From the NCBI GenBank assembly GCA_963662155.1, contig OY759263.1, forward strand, positions 31,349,023-31,413,022: 64,000 nucleotides of DNA. The letters run 5' to 3'. Each line of letters opens with the position of its first letter. Within the stretch, counting starts at the first letter, position 1. Made by a program: the position numbers and the translations under genes. The notes under the pieces were generated by a model. It was given only the letters and a program-made list of their open reading frames with translations. It was not told the DNA's origin and searched no databases. Below are positions 34,353-63,845 of this stretch, one piece after another. This stretch comes from Lamellibrachia columna. Its lineage: Eukaryota; Annelida; Polychaeta; Sabellida; Siboglinidae.

Positions 34353-37300
34353 ATATATAGTATATATATATATAGTATATATATATATTATACATATATA
34401 TATATTAGTGCCCTGCGCGGGCCAGGCTTTTGGTCCAAGCCCGGCCGGGCCGGGCCTCTACATAATTTCGCAGGCCGGGCCTGGGCCTACATACTGCGGG
34501 CCCGGGCCGGGCCTGTGCTGAAAACAATTTAAACACATCGGGCTTGGGCCGGGCTTGGGCCTAGTGTGAGCGGGCCGGGCTGGGCCTGGGCTGGCTTTTT
34601 TAAAATAAAAACTGATTATAAATTGTAATTGTCTGGGTCGGGCCTGGGCCTAAATTCTAGTTTGCGGGCCTGGGCCGGGCTGGGCTTGAAAAATTATTGC
34701 GGGCCTGGGCCGGGCCTGGACTCTAACTGCTAATTGCGGGCCGGGCTTGGGATCAAATTGTATGTTGATGATGATGTATGTATGTTGTTGTTTATCATGG
34801 TGTTTCTGTTTGACAGAACCTAGCACCGATGACAAGGTCAAGAAGAGAGTAAAAGAGGTTAGTTTCTTCATTTCTGGAAGTGGTCTATCACTTGGTACCT
34901 GCACCATGTACTGCATTTCAAATTAGCACACATAGTTTGGGAGACTTTAGGGTAAAGTTTAGTAAGTAAAACTATAACACCTGAATGTTTCATTTTGGTT
35001 TCATGTAATAATTCCCTTGTAAAATGTGTATCAGATTAGTTAAAATGGTTTGTTTATGTAGAATGGCAGTGTTTCTCAGTAAGATTTAGTATCGTATACA
35101 TAATTTAGATAATTGGTTTGTTTTTTGTCTTAGTAGTGAACAGTAACTTGAAACTATACTCTGATACAATGTGTTGAAATTTGTGTGTACTAAATTCTAT
35201 TGCTTTTGAGTGCATGATCATTATTAGAGCAGCAAAACTTTCCATAGATGAACAATTGAGGGGGTGAATATTCCATTATTAAATGCATACTCAGGGGGTG
35301 CTTTTTTCATATGAAATATTTGGAAGGGAGTGAACATTTGATTTCACATTTCATCTTGCATGAAATATACATGAGTCAGCACATACGTAATTTGTTGATG
35401 TTAGATTGCATCGAAGCATGTAAGTGGACTTTGGATCGCCCAGTTGGCGGTGGAGTACAGAGCCACCTACTGGGAGGAACCGCCAGCAGACATCCTCCAA
35501 CTCATCGAAGAATGGACAGACATCATCAAACTGGAACAGTAGGTTTTTGTGTACCACTGCACCCTTGTTAATGCAGACGCCAATAATTATGAAGCCTTTT
35601 TATCTGAACATCTTATTGGAATGGTATTTCTAAATGCCAATACTGGTAGTCGCCAGATTTGGAAGTCTAAATCAGGCACTAAACATTACTTTTACTGAAA
35701 ATCTTAGTGCAACAATTCGATAATTTTGAATCGATCAACAATTGTTTGCTTGTTATTCGGAACACTGATAATAAGGTAAACACATTCATTTTAATATTTT
35801 GAAGTGATTGATTCTAACAGCGATATAATAAAAACAGTATACATCAACATATTTATGTACAGTAAATCGATGTTTGATGCATATTGATGTTCAAAAACGT
35901 GTGTATAATTCATCTGTCTGGAAAACTTAATCCAGACATCAGTTCTTCAGATTAACGATGTTCGACTCTTCTAAGTTCATCCATCGGCGCTGCCAGTAAT
36001 TATTGCTCGTTTTACATCTAAATTAACTTGCTAGTTCATGTGCTAGAATAGTTCTTCCTAATTTGAAATAATTCAAGTTTCTATGAGATTTAACAAGATT
36101 TAACAAGATTTGCCATCCAAGCCAAAGGCCCAGATGGCAAGTGGACAAGGAAGCCATTGGCTTATCGAGAGTCCAACAATGTTCATCTACTTATAACCCG
36201 CCCTCCTGAGATATGTGTCAACCTTGTTTTTAAACATATTCACGCTGCTAGCAGTTACACAATCTGTAGACAATTTGTTCCATTCATTTATTGTCCTCTG
36301 TGAGAACGAGTGCTTCCTGATGTCCAATCTACATTGATCCTTTACTAATTTTACCTCATGTCCTCTAGTTCTGCTATCCTTCTTGAGTGAGAAAAACATA
36401 TTTCTATCAATATTTTCATACCCATTCAATATCTTAAAAACTTCAATCTGATCTCCTCTTAACCTCCTTGTCTCTAGAGTTGTTAAACCACATTCTTTCA
36501 GGCGTTCTTCATAACTAAGGTCTCTCAGTTCTGGAATCATTTTAGTTGCTCTCCTTTGTATGCGTTCAAGCGTATCTATATCTTTCTTACGATATGGTCT
36601 CCATGCTTGTATACAGTATTCTAAATGAGGTCTAACTATTGCTTTATAAAGAGGTATAATTAACTTTTTTCCCTTGTATGTTATGTTTCTTCTAATCAAT
36701 CCAAGAATTTGATTACCCTTTGAAGCTGCAATACCACACTGCTCTGAAACTTTCATATCAGCGCTTATTGTAACTCCTAAGTCCTTTTCTTTTACAGTAG
36801 TACCCAGAACAGTATCTCCCATTTTATAGTTTACATTCAAGTTCCTATGTCCTGTATGTAGGCATTTACATTTCCCAAAATTGAACAACATCTGCCATTT
36901 CTCAGACCATTTCACTAATCTGTCTAGATCGTTTTGTAAATGTTGTTTATCACCATCAGTATTAACCTTTCTAAACAGTTTTGTGTCATCCGCAAATTTC
37001 AGTACGTTACTTGTTATACTGTCGTCCAAGTCATTGATATAAATTAAGAATAATATAGGTCCTAATACTGATCCTTGAGGTACCCCACTCAAAACCGATT
37101 TCCAATTTGAAACTTCTCCATCTACTACAACTCGTTGTCTTCTGTCAGTCAGCCATTGTTCTATCCAGTCAGTTATGCTGTCCCCGATACCATGGGCTTT
37201 TAATTTAAGTAGTAATCTTTGATGTGGCACTTTGTCAAAAGCTTTCTGAAAATCTAAGTAGATAATATCTACTGGCGATCCCACGTCTATCCACTTAGTG

Positions 37301-40300
37301 ATTTCTTCCAAAAAACATAACATATTTGTTAAGCATGACCTCGCTTTAAGGAATCCATGTTGAGATGAATTTAATAATTTATGCTTAACGAGGAATTCCA
37401 CCATATGGTCTTTAATTAACCTTTCTAATAATTTACAAATCACTGACGTTAAACTCACTGGTCTGTAATTCTCTGACTTATTTCTCAAACCCTTTTTAAA
37501 TAATGGTATGATGTTTGCTTCTTTCCATTCAAACGGAACAACTCCCTCTTTTAATGACAAGTTGAATACTCTTGCAAGTGGTATACTGATTTGTTCTACT
37601 GTTTCCATTAGTAATTTTGGAGGAATCCCATCCACTCCCGGTGATTTGTTATCTTTCATTGCCTTTATTTTCTTAGCTACCAATTCTGGAGTTACAACTA
37701 ACGGACCTAAATAGTCAGATTTAGCCTGAGATGCAGACACTTGGCTGTTGCTTTAGTGATTGTAAATTTGGACATAATTCCATCTGTTTATGCATATGTA
37801 AAGTTGGCATAAGACGCTAAATTGATAAAAAGCTTGATGTGTTTGTGTGAAATTTGCTCTGTGCCAGTTTGTATAAATTAATCCATACCTGAGTAACATC
37901 CCTGTGGAATCATGGAAGTATGTGGTTAAATGTGGTTCTCTGCTTTGATTTTCAGGATGGCTGCTTCAAACCGGAAGATCATGTACCCTGTCACTGAGCA
38001 AAAAGCAGTTAGACTTGTGCAAACCTCGAAGGTAACATATCACTTTTGTTACATAGACAGCCATGGTGGTTACCATGTTACAAAGATAGCCATGGTGGTT
38101 ACCATGTTACACAGACAGCCATGGTGGTTACCATGTTAAACAGACAGCCATGGTGGTTACCATGTTTCACAGACAGCCATGGTGGTTAACATGTTAAACA
38201 GACAGCCATGGTGGTTACCATGTTACACAGACATCCATGGTGGTTACCATATCTGCTGCTTTAGTTCACTTCACTTTCTGTCACTTTCTGTATTAGTACT
38301 GGGAGGAGACCGTTGACAGTGATGACATTTCAGTGATGGAAGTATATGAACAAAGCACATGATTCTTGCTCTGATAGTGGAGTAAGCATCACGAGCACCT
38401 TGTCTAGGCAAATACTGGCGCTGTATAAGACACGTTATATTATTACATTTTGTGTGGTAATTTTCACATAACTGATTCCTTTATACACCTACCTTTTATA
38501 AGAAGTAATGGTTGAGTTTGTTGAAACATGTCTACCATGGGAGAAGTGTAAAGGTGTTAATTGGTTGTGACAGGCAGTAAATATATCTGTACCTGCCATA
38601 TACAGTCACGACTATGTTGATGTTCACTCAGTTTCTCCGTACCTTTGGACAAAATGCACACAGTTTGAATGCAAATGGGCAAATGCAGTAGTTTGCAGAA
38701 CTAATATGGAAGTTATGGGATTCTTGATATTGCCAGAGGAATTAGCATAAAAGTAATTGGTTAATTATTTAATATGGTGGAACTTAGATCTACTAAGATG
38801 TGTAGTGTAATCGGGCAAACATGCATGTAAAGTTTGGTGATGATCGATGAGCCGATGTTGGAGGTGTTTGCTTTGAAACATTTAGCAATTGTAGTAAGAC
38901 TGTGCGGTGATTTTCAGATGGAGCACTTCAAAGTGCCACCTGCCACTGTTCCCAAGCCAGAGTAAGTTGAATTCCTACCCTTTGTAAATTGTATAAAAAT
39001 AAATATTTATTGTCATTCATGTTGTATATGATGTGTTGATACAAAGTGTGTAGTTGTTGGAGCGTTTACTTGCAGTAATTGCTGTTCTTGTTAAATGTTT
39101 CGTACACTTCTAATTGTTCTTCTGGAGCTGACCAGCTGACTCCCTCCAAGCTAGACAGATGTTGTTAAACATGTTTTGGTGTATTTGCAAATATTTTAAA
39201 AGTGCCATTTCTCAGTATTGTGATGTTCAGGTTAGACTGATTTCTGGGGATAATCAAATGATGTTCTTCCTCGTAGTTCCCGTAAAGGGGTGAGACTGAC
39301 TAGTTGTTGTACTGCCACGTTGCTTCCTGTTGGTACAGCCGTTCCCCTCCACTTTTCGTCCCCCTTATCTTTTCTCACATTCCTCTTAGCTGACCTTCCC
39401 ATCTTAATTGTGGTCTTTTCCCGCGACCTCACTGTTTCACCGCCTGTGCTATTTTTGGTGGTCGACCCCTCACCCCCCCCCATCTGCACCAAGTGACTCA
39501 CCTCATCTGGCTTTTTAAATAATTGTTAGGTGCACAATACTTTTTGTGCACAAGGATTGTCAAAGTAGCATTGCCATTACTCTCATGTGACCATCATTGC
39601 AGTGCAACCATTACGGTGCTGATAAGCCATCTGGTGGACTGTTCACACTTCTACGTCCAGTGTGCCGATTCAACCATCAATGAAATCATGGAAGAGCTCG
39701 CTGGTGTTTACGAGGTAACCCCCCTTTCTAACTACCAAACCTATGCGACAGTATTATCTGTTAAAAATCTCTAGATGTGTGTCTCGCAAACTGAACATGT
39801 AAAGAGATCAGTTAATAAATATATTTGGAGTTGTGACTGTATTAGACTGAATCTCACCACCAATTGCACAACAACAAACTTGTTCCTCACAGGGCCGTGG
39901 AAGTCCGAAGAATATCCTCAACCCTGAGCCGGGGCTGTTCTGTGTCGCCAAGTACGAGGACGGCAACTGGTATCGCGCCCTGATCCTCGCAGTACACCAC
40001 ACTGCGGCCGACGAGGTGAGACCGCTGCATCTTCTTTGTTTGTCACACATAATAACTGCCACACTCGGTGCTGTCAAGATATTATGATAAAGGCCTGTGT
40101 GAATAAGAAATATCTCTTGATATTGCTTTTGATAAAGGCAACAAGCTGTTCTGATTTTAGTCGTTCTTATGAGTGCCACAGTTTGTGAAGGGCATATTTT
40201 TACTGTTGAATTCTTTGGAGACACATTTCTTGAACGAATCCTCATTTAAAATTGACAGATATTTGACAAATATAGATGACTAAGGCAGTGATGATAAACT

Positions 40301-43300
40301 GTTGGAATCTCGGTAGGTCAACATTTGGGTTCCTTGTCACTTGCCATATGGAGTTTGTTGCTTTGAATGGCAATCTTGTTAAATCTTTGACAGATTGAGT
40401 GTGAAGTCATGTATGTTGACTTTGGAAACTGCGACACGGTGCCAGCGTCCAAGATTAGCCGCATCCTGGAGAGCCTTTGCAAGGAACCAGCCCAGGCCAT
40501 CCGATGTTCCCTCCATGGTATCTTCCCAGCCGAGGTATATGAATATTCAGTAGTCACATGTCATGTCATTCCTATCTTGTTTGGTCACCAAACCTGTCGG
40601 CGAGTTATTTGGATGTAGGGAAACTGACATGAACCAATTTTGCTTTGGGTTTGAAAATGGGAAGACCTGTCAGTAATAGTAATAATATAATTTATTTAGT
40701 ATAGCACCATATCTAAAATTGTTTGTGGTGCTTTCCAGCATATTAAAAATTAATAAGATAATCTAGGATTGCTAAATAAACAAATAACTAAATAAATAAA
40801 TTCAAATACCACTAGTAATGAGAATTATTGTAAAATAAATACAGTACAATGATTATATAGCAATACAATAATAATAAATAAATAAAAAAATTATAATAAT
40901 AAATACTAAATAGGCAAATAATTTTTTTTAAATATTGCTGTGCTTGGACATGAATGGTTGTCGGGCTGACGTTTGCATGAGATCGTTGTGTCTGCAGGGC
41001 GAGACATGGAGCGAGGACGCCATCAACTTCTTCTTCAACCTGTCGATGGAGACAGAGCTGAAGATGGACGTGATCAAGGCAGACGGTAGGAACAGTTCCC
41101 TCTATGCCGCTCGTGTTATTTACATACCGTTTACAACTATCAACATTCGCCTATTCGTACAAAGTGCACTAAAGGGGGGTGAAGGCCGGCATACTCGTTT
41201 TTAGATGTCGGTCGCAAGCGAAATATGACCACTGTTGCATCATGCAGCACCGCGCGGTGAACTATTACAGAACTACTGTTGGTTTTATTTTCGTAAACGG
41301 TTACGGTGTGGGCACTGTAATACAGGCTGACATCTTGGAAATTCACAACGTCGTGGAAAACAATTATCAATGTGATGCCATGGAGTTGTTGGAAAAACAC
41401 AAAGCTTTAACATAATTATTGGAGATAAATGTTTGTGAACTTATTCTGGTGGTTATTAGTGCATGTCCTGTACAGGTGCACTGTGTTGTAACATTGTTAC
41501 ATGTCCTGTACACGTGCACTGTGTTGTAACATTGTTACATGTCCTGTACACTTGCACTGTGTTGTAACATTGTTACATGTCCTGTACACGTGCACTGTGT
41601 TGTAACATTGTTACATGTCCTGTACACTTGCACTGTGTTGTAACATTGTTACATGTCCTGTACACGTGCACTGTGTTGTAACATTGTTACATGTCCTGTA
41701 CACTGCACTGTGTTGTAACATTGTTACATGTCCTGTACACTGCACTGTGTTGTAACATTGTTACATGTCCTGTACACTGCACTGTGTTGTAACATTGTTA
41801 CATGTCCTGTACACTGCACTGTGTTGTAACATTGTTACATGTCCTGTACACTGCACTGTGTTGTAACATTGTTACATGTCCTGTACACTGCACTGTGTTG
41901 TAACATTGTTACATGTCCTGTACACTGCACTGTGTTGTAACATTGTTACATGTCCTGTACACTGCACTGTGTTGTAACATTGTTACATGTCCTGTACACT
42001 GCACTGTGTTGTAACATTGTTACATCAATATTTTTTGTGTGAAGAAGTATGAACATTTTAAATTAGTAATTCAGAGAGGGGGTGTGATAATTAGTTTGGT
42101 ATGAATAGTAAACGACCCCTGTGACATACATATTCATAATAACTACAGATGTGTTCCTTTGCTCAGACTGGTTGGGTCCCTGAGCTATGCTTGGAATGTC
42201 ACAAATGTTTTGATCCTGGAAAATTTTTAATTTCTGGTGTGAAATATGCTGGGGGGGGGCAGTAACCTAACTAAAAATACATGCATTCATTGTAGGTGTC
42301 AATTCATTATTATTCACGTAAAGCATGCATGCAAGCACAACCGTGCATCTTGTTCCATTCACCGATTGTGATAATAATTTAAGTAGTACATTGAATTTAG
42401 CTTGTTGGTGTCCTGGAAGACTGTTTTCTGATCACTGCAAATCCATTCCCACATTGTCCTGATTTTCTCCCGGGGCACTATGGCTGAACGAACGTTTTAT
42501 TTGCAGAAAATACTTGCTCTGTGGTCCTCCGCGACATGACAGATGGCAGCACAGACATATCAATAAATCGCCAGATGGCGTCAGACGGTGTCGTAGCTTC
42601 AGTGGAACCACGTAAGTTCATCATTGTTCATATTGTTATTATAGCTCTACCTTGCTCTACAGATGTTAGGCATGGACACTCCACATATTGTTATTATAGC
42701 TCTACCTTGCTCTACAGATGTTAGGCATGGACACTCCACATATTGTTATTATAGCTCTACCTTGCTCTACAGATGTTAGGCATGGACACTCCACATGAAT
42801 TAACAATTACTTGATCTAACTTGTTTTTTAAATATCAGTGCTGTGGAAAACTTGAGTTCAGTTTACCAGTTTAATGTAATACATAGAAATAGTTAAGTGG
42901 TGCAATCATTTACTAATGTAAAAAATATATAAACTCTCATGATCACTACAATAGTTGCAATTTATCAGCGTATACACACATCTGTAACGATTTAAGTAGG
43001 TCCATCTAGTATATAATATATAAATTTATTATCACATCAATTGATCAACTGGCGCAAGTATAATTAAACAGAAATGTGTTTTAGCTTTAACGTTTACAAA
43101 TATATTACTTTTGAGTGGCGTAAGACATGCCATAGAACGACGGTGTGGCAAGTGTTTGCATGTTGTGACTGCGATGTTATTTGCGATGCAGCACCCCTCA
43201 TGTTGCCTGAAAACAGCGACTGGCCCGTGCTGGTCACCTCGGTCAAGATGACCACAGAAGTGACCATCAGACTGGTTGGACCTGACCACTCAGTGAGTCA

Positions 43301-46300
43301 TGTGTTTGGTTGCAAGTCACATCTGCTGGGCTTTGTCTACCAGCCCTTTATGGTTAAAACAAACACGTTTTTTTTTATAGCAAAATAAAAAATTTGTGTG
43401 TGGATATTTGGCATTAAATTAATATTTTATATAAAGCCCTTTCAAACATGTTGTATTCAAATCAATTTGGGTGTTTATTCTCAAATGATTTTTATTCATT
43501 GTTTTGACGACTCAAATTTACAACCGATAAAGCAAATGATTTGACGGTGGTTTGTTATTGATACATTTGAATCGTAATAATGATAATAATAATAATAATG
43601 ATCTAATTAATTGTGATACAAGTAACATAACGGAGTAAACACACAGCATCATCTGTGTTATTGTCCTGAATGGAAATTGGAAGATGCACTGCTGCCTGCT
43701 TCAGGACAAACTAGAGGAGTTGGAGGAGAGGTTGTCTTCGCTGGCGGACATGGCGGTGCCCGACACTGCGCCACACGTTGACAGCGTCTACGCCGTGTGC
43801 ACCACCGACACTGAAGGGTCGTCGTGGAGCCGCGTACGCATCCTCAGCATCAAGGGACTTGAGGTACTACTTCAGACCCAGGCATAACATCTAAAACTTT
43901 TTGTATTTTCCTGAGTTACAATTCTCTGTGATTTTACTCAGAATTGGCCCTTCAAAGTTTGCGATTGGTTTGTATCCTTGAATATCATTCTCTTCTTCAA
44001 CTCTGTTAATTTTTAGCAATAATGTAAATTTTTAGGTAATGTAAATTTTTAGGAAAATACATTTTTAGGTAACTATGTTCTTAGACGATGGCAGAATGCA
44101 GCATTTTTAAGATGTAATGTTATTTTCAGTGCGAAGTGACATTTCTTGATCACGGGGACTCAGACTTTGTCAGCCGCGACGCCCTTCGACCTTTGAGTCG
44201 AGAGATGAATCAGCTGCCATACCAGGTATGTTGGGGCTGAAGCCACAAAAACAAGTTGATGATTATGTGCAGATTTTTATATGCACAATTTTAATTAGAT
44301 TCACAAAATGATCACCGTACATGGTGATATTATAACATATTTCACATGTCCAAGAGTCTTAATAATTAAGTAATGTTTTTTATACTAGTCGTATTATTAA
44401 TATACATTAAAATCTAAAAATGTGAACATACTAATGATGTTATTAATAGACAGTAATATGTTGTGAATCTTTAAAAAAGGGAGAAGGCTCTGAGAAGGTG
44501 CAGGATTTGCAGACCCCTGTTTTCATTGGTCCCTCTTCTCAACCAGTTGTGTCGTTCATATAGATCTGTAAACAATCTATATTAGTGTTGCTATTAATGT
44601 ATCTTGACACGTTGCAGGCACTGTCGTGCAAGTTGACTGGTCTGGAGGCCTACGAGAAGGACCAGAAAGTCATTGACTGCCTGGTGGAGATCTCCCTCGG
44701 CAAGACATGCATTGCTGCCGTGGATGACAGGTGAGGAACTCACACAGTGGGTCACAGTTCACTGCATCTTGTCATTGTTAGCTTGCGATTACACCTGAGT
44801 CTGCTCACTGTGTTTGGGGCAGGGTGTAACTGCGAGAGGAGTGTAAGTCACTGTAAGCATAGTGTTATGTTGACAGTATTATAACGCATTTTAGAGGTTT
44901 CCAAACATTTTGATGAGGACAACCTAGCTTCTGTATCTAGTGGCCTCTTGCTGTATGGTCTCCTGACGTAAGGAACAACTGTGAAATCCCGTTCTAGTCT
45001 GCACTGTATTATATAGTGATACAACATTATTAGCTGCGTGATGTTACCTTGCTATCATGTCTTGCAGGCTAGATAAAGTGTCGCTGACACTGTGGGACAC
45101 GTCGGAGGAGGAGGACGTCAACATTAACGAGACTGCGGCCAAAGTACTGAAGACAGAAGACTTGACACCTAAGCTACCCGAGGTGGGTGTTGTTAGAAAC
45201 ATCCCAGCTTTTATATCCACGCTAGAAATTTTGCCAGACGACAGTCAAATGTTTCCAAGTGAGGAAGTAGTTTAGTTTCTTGACCTGTAATATAAGTTTG
45301 CGTTCTTGAGAGGCGATAGTTCTGTTCGAGATGGCACTATAATGTTTTGCTAGATTCTATTGTCAAGGCGGTTATTTATTGCAATCAAAAAAGGTTTTAT
45401 TGTTTGAAGGTCCCTCCTAAATTTGATAGGGATTTTTTTTAAATTGACTGGATGTTACATAAACTATTCACACACTACATATTTGGTCATAAACAAACCG
45501 GATTTGCAGTAGGCTAAATCAGATGAGGATGGAGTTTTAAAATATATGCTTCTCACTGAATATCAAGTTGATTGCTGTGTTGGTTGTAGCGTGGTGGTAC
45601 CATAGAGGTGTATGTGAGCTGTGTTGGTTGTAGCGTGGTGGTACCATAGAGGTGTACGTGAGCTGTGTTGGTTGTAGCGTGGTGGTACCATAGAGGTGTA
45701 CGTGAGCTGTGTTGGTTGTAGTGTGGGGTACCATAGAGGTGTATGTGAGGTGTGTTGGTTGTAGCGTGGGGGTACCATAGGGGTGTGTGTGAGCTGTGTT
45801 GGTTGTAGCGTGGGGTACCATAGAGGTGTATGTGAGCTGTGTTGGTTGTAGTGTGGGGGGTACCATAGAGGTGTATGTGAGCTGTGTTGGTTGTAGCGTG
45901 GGGGTACCATAGAGGTGTATGTGAGTTGTGTTGGTTGTAGCGTGGGGGTACCATAGAGGTGTATGTGAGCTGTGTTGGTTGTAGCATGGTGGTACCATAG
46001 AGGTGTATGTGAGCTGTGTTGGTTGTAGCATGGGGGGTACCATAGAGGTGTATGTGAGCTGTGTTGGTTTGTAGCGTGGTGGTACTATAGGGGTGTGTGT
46101 GTGAGCTGTGTTGGTTGTAGCGTGGGGTACCATAGAGGTGTATGTGAGCTGTGTTGGTTGTAGCGTGGGGGGTACCATAGAGGTGTAAGTGAACTGTGTT
46201 GGTTGTAGCGTGGGGGTACCATAGAGGTGTATGTGAGCTGTGTGACGCAGCAGGGAGACATCTACATCCAGTGCCAGGGACCGGGACTGCAGCAACTGGA

Positions 46301-49300
46301 GAAGGTGGCAGACCACATCGAGGAGCAGTACGGCAAGGTCTGCTTCTATTTCCCCTCTGCAGTGACTCATATTCATTCAGATTCCATATCAAATGTCTAT
46401 TGTGCCTTAAGGTAGTATTTACTTTATGGAATGTTAGATATTCACACTTTCTGACAGTGTGTTAGCAGATCGTGTTCTATTGTTTGAAGTGTCGTATAAA
46501 ATCACTTATAATTTCGTGCTTATAGCCTAAAATTTTTTTAATCTTTCTGTCAGTTCTGTCACACTATTACTGTTTATTCTGTAAAGCAGAATTTGCACTT
46601 GGGTAGCTACTGTGAAAGGGGCTAGCTGTTAGCCTTGATATGAATCTCTCAGACCGTTGTTTGATATAATTTTCATTGTTATTTACCCTGTAGTGACCCT
46701 GTGTTACACAAAATATGTATTCGTATCTGTGTTTATACTGTTGTAAAGCATGTAACTTTCTTCATCTTGACATCAACCATTATATAATAGACGGGGTAAA
46801 TATATAGTTTCACTCGTAATAACGGGTGAAGTAAAGAATTGTACATCTCTTCCTGATATCCTACATGTTTCTTCCAGGCGGGCAATGCCAGCGCGTTCGT
46901 ATCATCGCCCCAGGTCGACCAGCTGTGTATAGCCAAGAACTCCGACAGCGGCAACTGGTACCGTGCAAAGGTGATGAAGATTCTGCCTGGCCGAATGGTA
47001 TGTATACATGACACAATGTGTGCAACATCTAATGTTTGTATTTAAAATGTTGCTTACATAAGAACTGTATGTAAAATATCTTAATGAATTGCAAAAAAAT
47101 TACTGTTATGAATACCCTGAATATAACTGAAATGTGGTATAACAAATTTTTTAAATAATTTTTTTGTGAAGTTTAGTAGTTTCGTCATGGTATAAACGCA
47201 GATGTTCATATCGTATGATTACTGTACAATTAATTTTTTGTCTGCCACTGTTCCACTTTTATTTGCCACATGTATTGTATGTATACATACAATAACCACA
47301 TCAAAAGTTGGCCGTTGAATTGAACGCATACAGAGGAAAGCAACTAAATTTATTCCAGAACTGAGAGACCTTAGTTATGAAGAACGCCTAAAAGAATGTG
47401 GTTTAACCACTGTGTTTTAACTAGAGACAAGGAGGTTAAGAGGAGATCAAGTTGAAGTTTTTAAGATATTAAATGGGTATGAAAATATTGATAGAAATAT
47501 TTTTTTCTCACTCAAGTAAGATAGTTGAACTACATCAGGAAGTACTCGTTCTCACAGAGGACAATAAATGAATGAAACAAATTATCTACAGATTGCTAGC
47601 AGCGTGAATATGTTTAAAAACAAGGTTGACAGATATCTCAGGAGGGCGGGTTACACATAGATGAAAAATGTTGGACTCTTGATAAGCCAATGGCTTCCTT
47701 GTCCACTTGCCATCTGCCTTGGAACATCTTGTTAAATGATTTTATGTCCAGGTGGAAGTGAAGTTTGTGGACCATGGCATCATTGACACCATCCACTACA
47801 GATATCTGAGAGACTTGCCTGTGGGAAGCGACCTCCGTGATCTGCCCTATCAGGTAAATACCCCCCCATACTTAAACCTTTTCACTCAATGGTGGATAGG
47901 CCATCAACTACTCCATTCCACAGAACACGACTTTGAGCTTGCATTTCTAGTTCTTTCATTTATATCGTGCTTTTGTCATTTCTGCTTCTACTTCTCAGTA
48001 CCACGTGTTTCTTTTGTCATCTCTGCTTCTACTTCTTAGTGCCAGGTGTTTCTTTTGTCATCTCTGCTTCTACTTCTCAGTGCCAGGTGTTTCTTTTGTC
48101 ATCTCTGCTTCTACTTCTCAGTGCCAGGTGTTTCTTTTGTCATCTCTGCTTCTACTTCTCAGTGCCAGGTGTTTCTTTTGTCATCTCTGCTTCTACTTCT
48201 CAGTGCCAGGTGTTTCTTTTGTCATCTCTGCTTCTACTTCTCAGTGCCAGGTGTTTCTTTTGTCATCTCTGCTTCTACTTCTCAGTGCCAGGTGTTTCTT
48301 TTGTCATCTCTGCTTCTACTTCTCAGTGCCAGGTGTTTCTTTTGTCATCTCTGCTTCTACTTCTCAGTGCCAGGTGTTTCTTTTGTCATCTCTGCTTCTA
48401 CTTCTCAGTGCCAGGTGTTTCTTTTGTCATCTCTGCTTCTACGTCTTAGTGCCAGGTGTTTCTGTGCCTTCCTAATTGGTTCTCACCACTAGATTAGCGC
48501 ATTCATGTATACAAACATTCAGTTGTCTGTTCAGTTTGTGCTTATTGATTTAAGTTTGAATTTTAATTATTTCCCAGTATAATTTAGTAATTCCCAGTAT
48601 AATTTAGTCATTTTTATTCAGAGTACTTTTGAGAGGGTATTGTGAAGACCAGTGAATATTTACTCTAAAAGGGTAATAAGATTATTTAAACACAAAAGGG
48701 CAACATGTCAATTTAAAAAATTACAAAAACTGACAACAGCAGTATCGAAACTGGTGTAAAAGTTGTCAGAATCGGAGACAATAAGCCACATACAAACCAC
48801 TGATAAATGGCAGCATGTGTGTGGAATCTTAAAACTGCATCTTTTTAAGACCTCGAACATAGAAACACAAATAGAAACAGTGATATTTATCAATTATATT
48901 GATTAACTTCTATGATTGATTGATCCAAAACCAATGATCGATCATGACAATTTCACCAATTCCCAAAACTAGTATCTGCTTCTCAGTACCAATGAAACCA
49001 TAGACTGAATCACGATTGTTGACTGGTTCTCTGTCAGGCCGTCAGATGTCAGCTCTACGGTTTGCCACCGGAGGACAGCGAGTGGACGACGGCCGTCCTT
49101 GACCGTCTGACAGAGCTGATGCCCCCGGACGAGCTGCGTGTGTTGGAGGTCGTCATGGGTGCACGGGAGACTGAGGATGGAAAGGTGTTGGCACAGGTGG
49201 AAGTCTACGAGATAGCCAAGGACGGGGAACTGATCGCCGTGAGTGAGACGGTCATGCGGGAGGTGGACTTGTGGTAAGTCTGTCATTGACTGTCGACACA

Positions 49301-54503: not shown

Positions 54504-57500
54504 TTAGTTGTTGTCGTAGTCCGTCTTGTAGACATCCATGTTTGTACTGACGTTGTCTGTTTGCTCTCTGCTCGGTTTCCTGACAGAGGAAGAGAACAGA
54601 GTAAGAAAACAATACAAAGTATCATGTATTCTGACGTCAGTAATATAGGGGAAGTTCCTGAAAACCCATCCTTCTCAGAAAGCACACCACGTTTAGTTCT
54701 AGGACAAACACTGATGATAACGCGACCTTTCTATAGTGTTAATTTTTTAATCATAACATAACTTGTGTTATTTATTTAATCGGCTGACAAAAGTTGCATA
54801 AGTACAGTATTGGTGTCATCACACTAGATGAAGTGACTTACACACTGTGCAAGCTTTACTTTTATGCATTTTGGGAACTATGATATAGATAGGATAAGTT
54901 AAAAAAAATTAGGTATTTGAATACGCACCTTCCGAACTCTTCCCCATCTTCCAACGTCTCGGGAAGGGTTTTGTTGAGTGTTTCTGGGAGCAGGGTGGTC
55001 GACAGGCTGGCAGTAATGGCTGCGATCCCATATAGCAGGAATGGCATCGGACCCCAATATGTAGTCTGAAAATGAAATTGTAAAATTACATTTTAAATAG
55101 TGTACGACAATACTACTTTTGTGTCGCCTATATGTACAGGTCCAGAGTTCAGAGGTCTTACAGCCTCAGTTACCTGGAATGTACAACGGTTTTCATTGGT
55201 CATCTGATACGAAGCTATTTTTGTATAAAAAAAAACAATGCCCTCATTTTTCTGAATTTTTCGATTTCAAAGTATATCTAAATTGTGTTGTACTTGTCTA
55301 TTTCATGTTTACTTTGTATTGTTATACTATATTTAGGGCCTACCACCAGACATTTTATCAAACGTGAACTTGACAGATCAATAAATCCTACGAAATACAT
55401 TATCTGTTTTACGTATTTCTGTACAGTTGACTACTAACAATGAAATGGGCACAGAACGGCAACGAAAGAAGGGATACCGGAACTACTTACAAGGCGACCG
55501 AACTGCGGCTGTATGAGTCCACCGACGCGGGCACACATCGACGAAGATCCGACCCCGACTTGTCTAACGACGGTAGGGAACAATTCTGCCGAGTACACAT
55601 AGATGACGCCGAACACGGCGGAGATGAAGAACTTGCCGCACATACTGAAGACAACCAGAGCCGTGTGGAGACCTGAAATATCCATTGAATGACTTATTTA
55701 CAAACACCACACGATGCTGAAGACGACTAGAGCCGCGTAGAGACCTGAAAGGTTCAGTGAATGACTTATTTACAAAGACCACACAACGCTGAAGACGACT
55801 AGAGCCGCGCAGAGACGTGAATGGTCCAGTGAATGACTTATTTACAAAGACCACACGATGCTGAAGACGACTAGAGCCGCGCAGAGACGTGAATGGTCCA
55901 GTGAATGACTTATTTACAAAGACCACACGATGCTGAAGACGACTAGAGCCGCGCAGAGACGTGAATGGTCCAGTGAATGACTTATTTACAAAGACCACAC
56001 GATGCTGAAGACGACTAGAGCCGCGCAGAGACGTGAATGGTCCAGTGAATGACTTATTTACAAAGACCACACGATGCTGAAGACGACTAGAGCCGCGCAG
56101 AGACCTGGAAGGTTCGTATAATGATTAAGTAAACACACATCAGTGTTGAAGGCCAATGTCGCCGTTTACAAACATGAACGGATCGTGAAATGACTTAATT
56201 ACAAAAACACCACATCATGCTGGAGGAGAGTAGAAACGTGAAGCGTTTATTGAATGACTCTAAGTTTCAAACACTACATGATTTGGAAGGCCAGTATACA
56301 GACGAGTTAAGACCCGACATCTTAATTTCCGTAATCTTGGTGCAGCAGCGACTTACTTACTTAGGTTTACTTAGGTTCTTCCTGACCGTAGGCGGTGGCC
56401 TCGGTGGTCAGATCTTCAACTTTCCCTTGGAATGCTCTACGACTTCCTGGCAAGGCAGCTTTGTAGTTGTGGAGAAACTCCTTAGTACTCCAATGTCTAT
56501 CTAGACGGTTTTTAAATGAGTTGACACTTGGGGCAGTTACAACTACTTTCGGTAGATCATTCCAAAATCTGGTAACTCTAAGTGAGAAGCTTTCTTTTCT
56601 AACATTTGTACAAGCACGTTCTATAAACAATGTCAAACTATGACCCCTTGTTCCTTCCCTTGTATCACTGTCTTTGTACAGCTTGACAATGTTAGATACA
56701 TCACTGTCATATTTCCCTTGGAGCAGTTTATATACCTCAATCATATCACTACGAGTTCGTCTATATGCAAGTGTAGGAAGTTTAAATATATGAAGTCTTT
56801 CCTCGTAAGGAATATTTTTCATACCAGGAAGCTGCTTTGTTGCGCGTCTCTGTACTTGAATTTGGTGCAGAAAATTTACAGGAAAGCGTGGAATATCGAA
56901 TAGAGTAAGTATTACTATTGCATATATATTATACATAAACGTATTGTAGACATATATTAGGAAACAGTTTTTGTTAATTATTAGTCAAAGGCAGTATTTT
57001 AGAGTAAGTTAGTTCCGGAGTCAGAAACAGTGGAACATAGGTTAGAATAAGTATTACTATTACACATATATTATACACAAACTTCTTATAGGCATATATT
57101 AAGAAACTGTTTTTGTTAACAGAGGCAGTATTTTCCCGGACTCAAATTCAACGAGCGATAAAAGGGAGTTTGTATACAGGTCGTGAATTAAACTGATGTA
57201 CTAAACTATCGTAACGTAAGTTGGTATACACTGACTTCGTTGTTTTGTTAAAGTGTTCTCCGTATTCGTTATGTGGCAGGCTTTTTCTTTGCTCGTGCGA
57301 GCTTAGTAGAACATACATAGTTAGCAAGTATATTAGCCTAAAGTGTTCTTTTGAACACACAACAGCAAGGCTAACGTAGCAATCAAATTAAAACTAAATT
57401 ATGTGATGGCGCCGTGCAAACGGCAGGTAAAGGCCACCGTTTAATATGCAGCAGCTGCAGCAAGTCCGGATGTGAGAAGTCCTGGGCTGAGGTTCAGGCG

Positions 57501-60500
57501 GATAGTTTTAGTTTTGAGTGTAGGGGATGTACGAGGATGAAGGAACTATACAGAACTGAGGCTGCTCGTTGTGGCAATGGTGGGAAGGGAACAGGCGGGT
57601 TGTGCCAGTGGTTCAGATTAGGGGACAGTAGATGATAAAGTGGGGGCAGACGATGAGAGAGATGCTAGGGAGAGCTCACCTCAGTCTTGGAGGAGGATGA
57701 GAGGAGGTAAGGTGACAGGATGTAAGGAGACGGGACGTAGGGAGACAGGACAAAAGGAGACGGGAAGGAAAGAAATGGGAGGGAAGACAAGTGGATCGAA
57801 GGAGAGGGGAGTGGGGGAGACAATAGTGAAGGAAACGGGAGACGGGAGGGAATGCGACGGGAGCGCAAGTTAGCCAGGAGACGGGAGGGAAATGTGACAG
57901 GTTGATGGATGCAGTCTGCCAAGTGACAAAGCTGCAGGACAGAATGTGATGGAAGGGATCCATCGGAAGAGCTATTCTGAGGCAGTGATAGAGGGGGTGA
58001 GAAAGAGAGCGAGGGTGTTTGTGGGGGACTCAACAGTTAGGAAGACCGACAGAGTCTAAAACAAGGGATATGACATGGTGGTTTGCTTGCCTGGGGCCAA
58101 AATAGAGGCGATAACTGAGAGGGTAGAAAACACCGTGGGTTTGGGCAAGGGTGGATCTGTTTTAGTACACATAGGGACAAATAACGTAGAGAGGGAGGGT
58201 ACAACTACCATAGTTAGGAAATACAGGAAATTGGTCAGAACACTAAAGCAGAAGCAGGTTGAGCAGGTAATACTGTCAGGGATTTTACCAGTAATAGGAA
58301 GGAGGGATCACAGATATAGAAATTGCCGGAGGATGGCAATTAACATGCTAGTCCAGAAACTATGTAGGGAAGAGGACGTTGGATTTGTGGGAAAGTTTTG
58401 TTGGAAGGGCTAATATGTACATGAAGGATGGGCTTCATCTAAGTGGAAAGGGGGCAGCAATATTTGCGGATGGACTCACAGCAGCAGTAGACAGTGACAT
58501 GGGTAGCATAACAAATATTTTTGGTAGTAAACATTGTTTAAACTAGAAGCGCAGGGGGGTTACCTAGAGATGCCTCAATCAGGACAAGAGGCCACTAGTA
58601 CAGACAAACCAATAACAAAATGTCCGAAAAACATGTCTGAAGCAGGTTATAGATGCGTGTATTTAAATGCTAGGAGTATAATAAATAAGAAAAACGAATG
58701 AAACATTATGGTAGAAGATATTGACCCTCACATAATTCGTATTACCGAATCATGGGCCAACACAGACATACCAGATGCTGAATAAGGATTGACAGGATAT
58801 GTAATGTTTAGGAGAGATCGAATAGGAAGAAGTTAAAGAATCTATTCAGGCTTAAGAAATAAAATTAGAAAGGGAAGCAAATTGCGGTGAAGCTGTTTGT
58901 TGCAAAATAGTTTCAGGAAATTAAAAAATTAACTATTGGATTAGTTTACCGAAGTCCAAACATAAACGAAGAGGATAACACAAAAATACAAAATGCTATA
59001 AAGGAAGTTAGTAAAGGGGAATGTATCATAATGGGATATTTTAACCATGGACACATGGAGAGTACAGGGGGTGAGGACCAACAATTTATATTTTTAATTC
59101 AGGATAGCTTCCTTACTCAGCACGTGCTAGAACCAACCAGGGGAGATAATGTATTAAATATTGTTTTGTTATCACAAAAAGAATTTGTGGACTATGTAAA
59201 AATACATGAACCAACAATCAAATACATTTTGCCATCAATGTAAAATCAGAAAGTACAAATAAAAAACGTATAGGAGAAACTTCTACAAAGGTAACTATAA
59301 AGATATCAGAAAATGTTCCCTTGAAAAATTTGTTCCCTTGAAAAACAAGGAAAACGGTCTAGAAAGAAACACTTGTCAAAAGAAGCTATTAGAAAATAGT
59401 GTTCAAGCAAACTATGTGGAGGGTTTATAGGCGTACCATAAAGGATGAAGACTATGCAAATTACAAAGAGGCACTTAGTGGAGGGTTTATAGGCGTACCA
59501 GAAATGATGAAGACTATGCAAATTACAAAGAGGCACTTAATGCAGCTACAACTGAAATTAGACAACCTGAAAGAAGGTATGAACAAAAACTAGCATGTAA
59601 CATAAACAATGACAGCAAGAGTTTTTATGCATACGTCAGAAGTAAACAAAACGTACAAGACAATGTCGGACCTCTAGAAGACAGTGCTGGTAATATAATA
59701 TCGCAGGGTTTTTAATGGCGGAAGAGCTAAATGGTTACTTCAGTTCAGTGTTTACGAGAGAGAACATTAGTTCATTACCAGTTCCAGATGCTAAATTTCA
59801 GGGGGCTAAATCGGATTATTTAGGGCAGTTAATTGTAACTCCAGAAAAGGTAGCTAAGAAAATAAAGGCGATGAAAGATAATAAATCACCGGGAGTGGAT
59901 TTCCTCTAGAACTACTAATGGAAACAGTAGAACAAATCAGTATACCACTTGCAAGAGTGTTCAACTTATTATTAAAAGAGGGAGTTGTTCCTTTTGAATG
60001 GAAAGAAGCAAACATCATACCATTATTTAAAAAGAGTTCGAGAAATAAGTCCGAGAATTACAGACCAATGAGTTTAACGTCAGTAATTTGTAAATTATTA
60101 GAAAGGTTAATTAAAGACCATATGGTGGACTTCCTTGTTAGCCATAAATTATTAAATTCATCTCAACATGGATTCCTAAAAGCGAGGTCTTGCTTAACAA
60201 ATATGTTATGTTTTTGCAACCACACCAATGTGCCATATAGTATGTCAATACAACCACAGAACAGTACTATCAAAAGCGCCTTGTGAACACCAAGTACATG
60301 TTGGTAGCCAACGCAGGCACGGACATACTAACGTAGGTCCCCACTAACATTTAGGGGAGAGTTGCCGGGATTAGCGATAAACTTAAATATAGACGCGAAA
60401 ACAAATGGAATTGATGTAAACAATATATTAACATAGATATTTTATTTTCATTCAATAACAAACTATTAATAACAAGAAAATCATTGATGAATTTTGTTTT

Positions 60501-63500
60501 AAATTAATAAAAAATAAATCTGGTACTGCTTCCATGGCAACAGCTGTCAGTGTTGGAGCTGCAACAGCTGGGGTCAGAGATGCCATAGGGTTGTGCTCTT
60601 GTGCAGTCACCATGCAACAGCTGTCAGTGCTGGAGCTGCAACAGCTGGGGTAAGATGTGCCATATGGTTGTGCTCTTGTGCAGTCACCATGCAACAGCTG
60701 TCAGTGCTGGAGCTGCAACAGCTGGGGTCAGAGGTGGCGTAGGGGTGTGCTATTGTGCAGCTTCCGTGATTACATTAGTTAACGTAGCAGTAGCGAAGTC
60801 GGGGTCTTGGAATACGTATATTGCCAATGACCACATACCAGCCTTCCTGAAGCCACTAACAGCGTCTGGACGGATGCCGATTTTATGTACGCCACATTAA
60901 GAATTTCGGCGACTTGCCAAGTTGTCACTGGTCTGCCTACATAATATTGTCTCAACCGCATCCTCAATGCATCATCGTAACATTTCCCAAACGGTCCAAA
61001 AAAGGCCCCATCCAAAGGCATAATAAAGTCTTTGTCCGAAACAATGTAAATTTACATGTGACCAAATGTGATCTGTTAAAAGTTCCCTCTATTGGACCAC
61101 TTAGCAAATTCTTTTATTTGCATTATTATAACTGCTCTCTTATCTAATATTATTTTCTGGTAATCAATGGAATAATTACACACATTTAATGATGGCACAC
61201 CCTTATGTGGTTCACTGGTCCAATTGTGGCAACTGCAGTGGTCCAATCGTGGCATTTCACGTGTTAAAAATATTGCATTGTCGTCACAAGCAGAAGACAT
61301 CCACTGTGAAATTCTTATTATCGCCACATACGTTTGGCTCATATACTCTTGATGGACATACATTTTCTGATTATTATGTCGGGGACATAGAAAACCTACT
61401 TCCGTTGATAAATATTTAACAAGTGCTACTATTTCGTCGAAACTTACCGTGTCATCCGAAATGCCACTGATGAATGATATAATCGATAGAGGACGCCACG
61501 GTATACAGCAATATGGAATATACAGCACTGGTCCGATCGAGGAACTGGTCCAATCCCGATAACTCTCTACACGTCGAAGAATTCGTTTTTGGATAGGTGT
61601 AATACAAACCTGGCTTGTTGAAGAGCCCAGTACAGACGAAGCAGGAGATGTACAAATGTGTAATACAAACCTGGCTTGTTGAAGAGCCCAATATAGACGA
61701 AGCAGGAGATGTACAAATGTGTAATACAAACCTGGCTTGTTGAAGAGCCCAATACAGACGAAGCAGGAGATGTACAAATGTGTAATACAAACCTGGCTTG
61801 TTGAAGAGCCCAATACAGACGAAGCAGGAGATGTACAAAGGTGTAATACAAACCTGGCTTGTTGAAGAGCCCAATACAGACGAAGCAGGGGATGTACAAA
61901 GGTGTAATACAAACCTGGCTTGTTGAAGAGCCCAATACAGACGAAGCAGGGGATGTACAAAGGTGTAATACAAACCTGGCTTGTTGAAGAGCCCAATATA
62001 GACGAAGCAGGAGATGTACAAAGGTGTAATACAAACCTGGCTTGTTGAAGAGCCCAATACAGACGAAGCAGGGGATGTACAAAGGTGTAATACAAACCTG
62101 GCTTGTTGAAGAGCCCAATACAGACGAAGCAGGGGATGTACAAAGGTGTAATACAAACCTGGCTTGTTGAAGAGCCCAATACAGACGAAGCAGGAGATGT
62201 ACAAAGGTGTAATACAAACCTGGCTTGTTGAAGAGCCCAATACAGACGAAGCAGGGGATGTACAAAGGTGTAATACAAACCTGGCTTGTTGAAGAGCCCA
62301 ATACAGACGAAGCAGGAGATGTACAAAGGTGTAATACAAACCTGGCTTGTTGAAGAGCCCAATACAGACGAAGCAGGGGATGTACAAAGGTGTAATACAA
62401 ACCTGGCTTGTTGAAGAGCCCAATACAGACGAAGCAGGAGATGTACAAAGGTGTAATACAAACCTGGCTTGTTGAAGAGCCCAATACAGACGAAGCAGGA
62501 GATGTACAAATGTGTAATACAAACCTGGCTTGTTGAAGAGCCCAATACAGACGAAGCAGGAGATGTACAAATGTGTAATACAAACCTGGCTTGTTGAAGA
62601 GCCCAATACAGACGAAGCAGGAGATGTACAAAGGTGTAATACAAACCTGGCTTGTTGAAGAGCCCAATACAGACGAAGCAGGAGATGTACAAAGGTGTAA
62701 TACAAACCTGGCTTGTTGAAGAGCCCAATACAGACGAAGCAGGAGATGTACAAAGGTGTAATACAAACCTGGCTTGTTGAAGAGCCCAATACAGACGAAG
62801 CAGGGGATGTACAAAGGTGTAATACAAACCTGGCTTGTTGAAGAGCCCAATACAGACGAAGCAGGAGATGTACAAAGGTGTAATACAAACCTGGCTTGTT
62901 GAAGAGCCCAGTACAGACGACGCAGGATATGTACAAAGGTGTAATACAAACCTGGCTTGTTGAAGAGCCCAATACAGACGAAGCAGGAGATGTACAAATG
63001 TGTAATACAAACCTGGCTTGTTGAAGAGCCCAATACAGACGAAGCAGGAGATGTACAAAGGTGTAATACAAACCTGGCTTGTTGAAGAGCCCAATACAGA
63101 CGAAGCAGGAGATGTACAAAGGTGTAATACAAACCTGGCTTGTTGAAGAGCCCAGTACAGACGACGCAGGATATGTACAAAGGTGTAATACAAACCCGGC
63201 TTGTTGAAGAGCCCAATACAGACGAAGCAGGAGATGTACAAAGGTGTAATACAAACCTGGCTTGTTGAAGAGCCCAGTACAGACGACGCAGGATATGTAC
63301 AAAGGTGTAATACAAACCTGGCTTGTTGAAGATCCCAGTGCAGATGAAGCACGAGATGCTGGCGGCAATTAGAGAACCGACCGTAGTCCACCGACGGCCG
63401 AGCTTGTTCATTACGGGAATCACGAGGATGTAGCACGGGATCTCGATGCCGCCGGATAGGAATGAGTTTAAGAATATGTTACCGCCTATGAGAGTCACCC

Positions 63501-63845
63501 CCAGTGACAAGCCGTAGTAGACCATACTTGTGACGAACCTAGGTCAGAAGTGTTCACGTTACCTCTTTGATTTTGGTAGATCATTAGACGGTGTAACGGT
63601 GTGGTTAGTTGACGACGCACTATAGAGAACTTCAGTAGCAAAGATAAAAAACAAAGATATCAGACACCCAGATAGAGGCACATTAACCGAGTGATTGTAA
63701 CAATAGAAATATAGACCATAACGGAAACAACTTAAAAAAAGCAAACTCACCAGGCCCACCACATAACAATTGTGATTTTCCGCAGGTTCGGAGTTTTGAG
63801 CAAGTTCAGTAGAGTAGGGTTGGTTGTTTTGTCTTCTACCTTTGT
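54504..63845 (-). CDS. SLC22-family organic-ion transporter, C-terminal part (5 exons)
   Basis: Major facilitator of the plasma membrane that moves organic cations, anions or zwitterions; the substrate cannot be told. Minus-strand exons in coding order are 63845-63751, 63538-63318, 55672-55491, 55065-54929 and 54579-54504. Phases 0/2/1/0/2 agree and give 236 residues. The first exon covers the TM6-TM7 loop and TM7 start (TPNLRKITIVMWWAW). Then come FVTSMVYYGLSLGVTLIGGN, the loop NKLGRRW between TM8 and TM9, and GKFFISAVFGVIYVYSAELF with PTVVRQVGVG, the SLC22 signature. Next are TTYWGPMPFLLYG with LLPETLNKTLPETLEDGEEF and a hydrophilic tail ending KTDYDNN. Family members are about 550 residues, so the 5' half lies beyond the right edge. 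The 7.6-kb third intron of this set is described separately. Confidence 0.92.
55673..56110. repeat. 72-bp minisatellite duplicating the SLC22 exon acceptor junction
   Basis: About six copies of a 72-bp unit, with gactagagccgcg at 55,731, 55,803, 55,875 and so on. On the minus strand each unit reads from intron (ataagtcattcactggacca) into GTCTCTGCGCGGCTCTAGTC and GTCTTCAG. That is a close copy of the first ~30 bases of exon 55672-55491. The nearest extra copy and the farthest one keep an AG before GTCTC; the four middle ones have CAC instead. The 168-codon ORF of 24-residue repeats is a by-product. Confidence 0.92.
56365..56936 (-). mobile_element. LINE fragment, C-terminal part of RT ORF (second CR1/L2-like family)
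   Basis: A minus-strand ORF gives QVQRRATKQLPGMKNIPYEE, then RLHIFKLPTLAYRRTRSDMI, and FSLRVTRFWNDLPKVVVTAP with SVNSFKNRLDRHW. This is the post-RT tail of CR1/L2-type elements but clearly different from the 36-kb family. The RT catalytic part is missing. It lies in the SLC22 intron, in the same orientation as that gene. Confidence 0.85.
57400..60216 (+). mobile_element. CR1-type LINE: ORF1, endonuclease and N-terminal RT, truncated at 3' end
   Basis: ORF1 begins near 57,414 with a Cys-rich finger (ICSSCSKSGCEKSW, then FECRGCTRMKEL), then a charged Gly/Lys/Glu segment. An SGNH-hydrolase-like esterase part follows at 58,000-58,410 (VFVGDSTVRKT, VLVHIGTNN, ILSGILPV), as known from CR1 ORF1. 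ORF2 starts near 58,640 with endonuclease motifs (YLNARSIINKK, IITES-like W). The RT amino part lies at 59,715-60,216 (AKKIKAMKDNKSPGVD, EWKEANIIPLF, LLNSSQHGFLKARSC). RT blocks are close to the 36-kb copy. Frameshifts and stops occur in all parts, and sequence similarity ends abruptly inside RT. It lies antisense in the SLC22 intron. Confidence 0.88.
60217..60530. other. SLC22 intron segment after the CR1 break
   Basis: Starts abruptly after the CR1 RT similarity ends (aaccacaccaatgtgccata). No recognised family or ORF. Confidence 0.5.
60533..60768. repeat. 77-bp tandem repeat, ~3 copies
   Basis: Caacagctgtcagtg(t/c)tgga and following bases recur at 60,538, 60,615 and 60,692. Each unit includes gctgcaacagctggggt and ggttgtgctcttgtgcag. 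Confidence 0.93.
60770..61025 (-). pseudogene. pogo/jerky-type DDE transposase remnant
   Basis: The minus strand translates PLDGAFFGPFGKCYDDALRM, then GRPVTTWQVAEILNVAYIKS. After one frameshift it continues as NAVSGFRKAGMWSLAIYVF and DPDFATAT. The L-D-x-x-F-F-G-P-x-K, G-R-P-(I/V)-T and G-F-R-K-(A/T)-G words are the C-terminal hallmarks of DDE_1 (pogo/Tigger/jerky) transposases. The catalytic residues lie upstream and are not present. It is a fragment in the SLC22 intron. Confidence 0.72.
61590..63350. repeat. 61-bp minisatellite duplicating the SLC22 exon donor junction, 28 extra copies
   Basis: The word tggcttgttgaaga recurs every 61 bp from 61,611 to 63,319, exactly 28 periods. On the minus strand each unit is GCTTCGTCTGTATTGGGCTC, TTCAACAAGCCAG, then GTTTGTATTACACC and GTACATCTCCT-like bases. 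That is the last 33 bases of exon 63538-63318 plus the donor GTTTGT and about 22 intron bases. Copies differ at only a few sites (gagatg/gggatg, aatgtg/aaggtg, and a tacagacgacgcaggatatg variant at 62,909, 63,153 and 63,275). The 638- to 786-codon minus-strand ORFs are by-products. Confidence 0.97.

Follow-up and report, generated by a model that had tools for sequence, protein, structure and literature searches.

The window, i.e. the whole 64,000-nucleotide stretch of DNA that was analyzed, spans positions 31349023-31413022 of contig C3 in the wsLamColu1.1 assembly (879,693,805 bases in 30 contigs) of the vestimentiferan annelid Lamellibrachia columna, and contains exons of a transporter-like gene, hereafter gene A, that is read from the minus strand. 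The feature of interest in this gene is a minisatellite that spans an exon-intron junction: the end of one exon, the splice donor and the beginning of the intron are repeated together, 28 times, beyond the real exon. The exons mapped with tblastn include exon a (63751..63845; TKVEDKTTNPTLLNLLKTPNLRKITIVMWWAW), with the donor G|GTGAGT and splice signals assigned by eye; exon b (63318..63538, also extracted directly), the real exon whose end is amplified and whose donor is CAG|GTTTGT; exon c (55491..55672; LHTALVVFSMCGKFF...QFGRL), which is the next exon after b and starts at 55672; and exon d (54928..55066), with the acceptor assigned by eye. In a protein of Ridgeia (P0001), the residues of exon b run on continuously with those of exons a and c.

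The assignment of this gene to SLC22 (solute carrier family 22), made in a previous sequence-only reading of the window, holds well at the level of the nearest relatives and is less certain at that of the family model. The best NCBIfam model for the joined exons is TIGR00898, which is matched over positions 1-506 of 506 (E 1.2e-129), but the score of 433.4 bits is below the curated cut-off of 550.75. Among the best 120 of 698 matches, the top four homologues are all vestimentiferan, three of these four are named organic cation transporter or solute carrier family 22, and the protein matches those of Ridgeia piscesae at 76% and of Lamellibrachia satsuma at 70-89%. Many other homologues among the matches listed bear the same names and contain PF00083 and PF07690. 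Judged by the names of these relatives, “SLC22-like” appears to be a fair label for gene A.

Tandem Repeats Finder delineated the array at 61595-63358 (period 61, 28.9 copies, 97% matches), and direct extraction resolved 28 units of 61 bp at 61590..63297 on the minus strand, each with a GT donor and the last one diverged at its 3' end. The end of exon b (last exon base 63318) and the 28 units thus present 29 donor sites in a row at an exact spacing of 61 bp, the last of them at 61610, as the sequence-only reading had maintained, with the real exon b as the outermost copy. The exon portion of the unit, previously given as 33 bp, is in fact 41 bp (CATCTC...CCAG), followed by 20 bp of intron, because the unit extends from a CATCTC word in the exon to another in the intron. 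The donors are intact with respect to GT (28/28), whereas the full CAG|GT is present in 27 of the 28 units, the remaining one having CGG|GT. Nor do the units reproduce their own exon exactly: the exon end of gene A deviates from the consensus of the array at 5 of 41 positions, whereas the exon ends of paralogues B, C and E match this consensus at all 41. By its structure, this is a mirage-type array, that is, a minisatellite spanning a splice junction as described in amphioxus, which does not imply common descent of the arrays in the two groups.

Gene A belongs to a tandem cluster of SLC22-like paralogues at 31.40-31.73 Mb of contig C3. The cluster also holds degenerate and more distantly related copies, but the comparison of the exon b junction covers genes A-E; it shows 28 extra donor units in A, 35 in C and none in B, D and E, which have the same GTTTGT donor in a single copy. 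Between A and C, the consensus units agree at all 61 positions. Where the junction is single-copy, in D and E, the CATCTC word in the exon recurs 61 bp on in the intron, and B retains 5 of the 6 bases (CATCT). The shared word noticed earlier at the unit boundary is therefore present at the same spacing in paralogues with a single donor, which backs the proposed origin of the first duplication by microhomology. The state of D and E is likely the one that preceded the duplication, or else it could have been restored by collapse of an array; on these comparisons, microhomology-mediated tandem duplication is the simplest origin of the 61-bp unit.

The first 16 units of the array in gene C are identical to the end of its exon, which fits recent growth on the exon side. 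The array in gene A, because its consensus is matched by exons B, C and E and not by exon A, appears either to keep paralogue-like sequence that its own exon has lost, or to have been copied from a paralogue. Three types of substitution (at positions 3, 20 and 54) are common to the A and C arrays, which hints at a shared origin of these arrays or at exchange between them; the supports in the gene tree, from 17 to 59, are too weak to discriminate between a single inherited array and exchange.

The same intron of gene A is amplified at its other end as well, a second junction array that the sequence-only reading overlooked, although the donor is amplified far more than the acceptor. At the acceptor of exon c (55645..56148, minus strand), there are 6 extra copies of a 72-bp unit that consists of 44 bp of intron and 28 bp derived from the exon. 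Counting the real exon start, there are 7 acceptor copies in A, 8 in B (C3:31484178-31484720) and 2 each in C, D and E. The acceptor AG reads AC in 4 of the 6 extra copies in A and in 3 of 7 in B, and the single extra copy reads AA in D but keeps AG in C and E. Thus, AG was lost in several acceptor copies of A and B, whereas not a single donor unit of A or C lost its GT. In A, B, C and D, use of the next upstream acceptor copy leads into an in-frame TAA.

Tandem arrays are prone to misassembly, so that the copy number could in principle have been inflated or collapsed by the assembly, although an array of 1.8 kb is well inside the usual length of HiFi reads. We consider such an artefact extremely unlikely. 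PacBio HiFi reads underlie the assembly, according to the available text of its description (PMC13080331), and one and the same unit occurs at the A and C loci with distinct variants. Moreover, a search that used gene A's read-through frame as the query found a C-type array in a separate contig: P0124, a call of 486 amino acids from an 814,726-bp contig in ENA, begins with 70 residues of gene C exon b, ends with the last 70 residues of the gene C array frame, and includes about 20 array units compared to the 35 in gene C. The source of P0124 is likely the deposited alternate haplotype (GCA_963667965.1), in which case it would represent the other allele of gene C. The only other match of the read-through frame was P0002, via the exon part. 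In particular, collapse of the array to one copy as an artefact is unlikely, because paralogue C has an independent array and the P0124 contig encodes a shorter one of the C type.

Junction arrays are not confined to exon b. Exon 6 of gene A (locus L009, C3:31416022-31416628) is followed by a donor array of 55-bp units, with 11.0 copies in A, 3.4 in B, 3.4 in C and 2.9 in D, and reading past this donor gives TTG TAA, an in-frame stop. On the plus strand of the window, a Tudor-domain gene has an acceptor array at 45574..46243, with 15.2 copies of a 44-bp unit that includes CATAG| and ~19 nt of the exon start, the real exon starting at ~46225; a homologue search with a fragment of the Tudor protein as the query yielded only 3 weak matches, full-length relatives possibly being outside the length limits. 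We further inspected 40 of the 136 listed matches to the protein kinase profile PF00069, a non-random sample in which the ends of profile matches are not always exon ends, and found junction arrays at 4 of the 40 exons, on 5 of 80 nominal edges, which is therefore a rough rate. Locus L043 has an acceptor array of 57-bp units and L067 one of 63-bp units, both open in the exon frame; L068 (C9:2959975-2960733) is affected at both edges of one exon, with 105-bp acceptor units and 35-bp donor units; and L045, with 36-bp acceptor units, was included solely on the basis of a copy that is visibly diverged.

A mechanism aimed at splice sites is rejected for this sample. When the edges of 40 exons of genes A-D, taken as the approximate ends of tblastn matches, were compared with circular shifts, 8 of the 80 were found within arrays against 8.3 expected (P of at least 8, 0.55); neither gene E nor exon c of C and D, where the junction is present in just two copies, was scored among the arrays. 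Around the kinase exons, 4,552 of the 28,000 flanking bases lie within arrays, compared to the 5 of 80 nominal edges. Minisatellites abound in the regions of the genome that were sampled, and exon edges are struck at or below the background frequency.

Against this background, the alternatives that the sequence-only reading left side by side, a neutral array tolerated through choice of the first donor or a device generating long, variable isoforms, can be weighed. If donors 3, 6 or 9 units downstream were used, blocks of 61 residues would be inserted in frame, producing variable isoforms of the transporter. In accord with this, three units amount to a multiple of three nucleotides, all 28 units of gene A are free of stops in all frames, and the exon b frame continues without a stop through both donor arrays, for 658 amino acids in A and 789 from the methionine in C; the kinase acceptor arrays L043 and L067 are likewise multiples of three and open. 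The observation of all-frame openness stands for gene A, but in gene C one of the 35 units has a stop in some frame, and such openness is not improbable by chance: P is 0.05 with mononucleotide shuffling, 0.09 with dinucleotide shuffling and 0.27 when the exon part is fixed and the intron part shuffled. We therefore reject the open frames as a mark of selection. Furthermore, the frame is kept by every third donor only, B, D and E, three out of five close paralogues, lack the array, and in-frame stops occur in 6 of the 8 sister junction arrays (the exon 6 donor, the exon c acceptor, the Tudor acceptor, the L045 acceptor and both arrays of L068). The insertion would also fall, presumably, given the topology that we assume for SLC22 transporters, near a transmembrane segment. 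Together with the background density of arrays at exon edges, these observations weaken the isoform option and make it highly unlikely for gene A; L043 and L067 would be better candidates for isoforms encoded by an array.

The neutral alternative is favored by the variation among paralogues, the edge density and the stops in the sister arrays. We propose, with a probability of roughly 0.8, that the gene A array is a mirage-type minisatellite that arose by a tandem duplication spanning the junction, was seeded by microhomology, and is neutral, the outermost donor being the one used. Under this scenario, a tandem duplication would have happened to span the junction of exon b and the intron, between the two CATCTC words, and the array would then have grown by unequal exchange or slippage. 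The spliceosome would take the exon-side donor, through exon definition and exon enhancers, and the extra copies would be removed with the intron; because they would leave in this manner, the array would be nearly neutral. In support of neutrality, copy number has been free to vary at one and the same junction among the paralogues (0, 28 and 35 extra units).

Several points weigh against this interpretation. Use of the outermost donor is inferred. All 28 decoy donors keep their GT, and they show no decay by which harmful or ignored copies could be recognized. By eye, the real GTTTGT donor looks weak next to the other donors of gene A, so the identical copies downstream could compete with it; when a 5' splice site is duplicated in vitro, the copy closer to the acceptor can reportedly prevail. 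Finally, the kinase acceptor arrays L043 and L067 are open and have unit lengths divisible by three.

Retention of GT, in 28/28 units of A and 35/35 of C, and the apparent weakness of the donor could also be taken as signs that the array is a splicing buffer under selection, in which many donors would raise local U1 binding and strengthen the definition of exon b. This appears very unlikely given that B, D and E have the same GTTTGT donor and yet no array, that the distinct substitutions in the A and C arrays (10 and 12, respectively) are too few to reveal constraint, and that exon edges are not enriched for arrays.

Amplification of a splice junction has a precedent in amphioxus. According to the available text of two reports (PMC3087553, PMC3902484), mirages in Adh3, the globins BflGb6 and BflGb9, troponin C and PGBD5 are, like the gene A array, minisatellite-like copies of exon/intron boundaries at the 5' or 3' end of an intron, many of them with AG/GT splice signals and of variable length, and they leave regular splicing undisturbed. 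The available text of the former report further indicates that both 5' and 3' boundaries are affected, that the phenomenon is possibly general to cephalochordates and that Adh3 shows somatic instability (PMC3087553). Compared to the amphioxus mirages as described there, those of the tubeworm reside in an annelid rather than a cephalochordate, are longer than in the case of BflGb6 (29 and 36 donors vs 6 and 3 repeat units), and affect one intron at both its ends and, at L068, one exon likewise. In human paralogues, internal tandem repeats (PMC2812944) also alter the structure of duplicated genes but are not described, in the title and the beginning of the abstract, as splice-junction arrays.

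The arrays also resemble a model of intron gain attributed to Rogers, in which an AGGT-containing segment, the proto-splice site, is doubled, as outlined in the available text of PMC3087553: potential splice sites lie in tandem in gene A, with G|GT in every unit and CAG|GT in 27 of 28. However, the gene A intron is present also in paralogues without a donor array and thus was not created by the array. Literature searches, which covered few subscription journals, yielded no junction array in an annelid or, specifically, a siboglinid.

What we describe is thus a known phenomenon in a new phylum, where it may be common, and its frequency in the tubeworm genome is the more interesting result. It bears on old questions, namely the choice among tandem identical splice sites and intron gain by tandem duplication, and the genome provides natural replicates: close paralogues have 0, 28 or 35 extra donors at the same junction, and a kinase exon is amplified at both edges. 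For the sequenced specimen, a public RNA-seq run (ERR12245607) is listed in the available text of PMC13080331. The arrays also call for caution in annotation: the naive open frame of gene A crosses the array, and P0124 looks like a call of this kind. More tentatively, and with considerable doubt, we suggest that several percent of exon edges in vestimentiferan genomes might bear mirage-type arrays that evolved independently of amphioxus, that the exon-side copy might be reliably chosen by the spliceosome among dozens of identical sites, and that, as the arrays turn over, the ends of exons might sometimes be copied outward and array sequence inward, into the first or last ~40 bases of the coding sequence.

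Arrays that are close to exons but do not qualify as junction arrays were also encountered. At the kinase loci L046, L053 and L038, arrays are located near the end of the match but do not visibly span the junction. Within the window, neither a 55-bp array (42629-42796) nor a 41-bp array in an intron of the Tudor-domain gene (47970-48463, 12.0 copies) spans an established junction; most units of the latter contain a pyrimidine tract, AG and CCAG|GT. An array with a 44-bp unit much like that of the Tudor-gene acceptor array is found ~176 kb away (C3:31571218-31571442). Elsewhere in the SLC22-like cluster, a 19-kb satellite with a ~44-bp motif (C3:31451077-31470167) adjoins the retained part of exon 2 in a degenerate copy, and a second degenerate copy has a shorter array of a similar unit at the same place (31518330-31518840). 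The window also includes a reverse-transcriptase frame of a non-LTR (long terminal repeat)-type element (36190-37752, minus strand; PF00078, E 1.1e-32), and pieces of similar frames can be discerned by eye, on both strands, in the 7.6-kb intron of gene A, at about 56367-60286.

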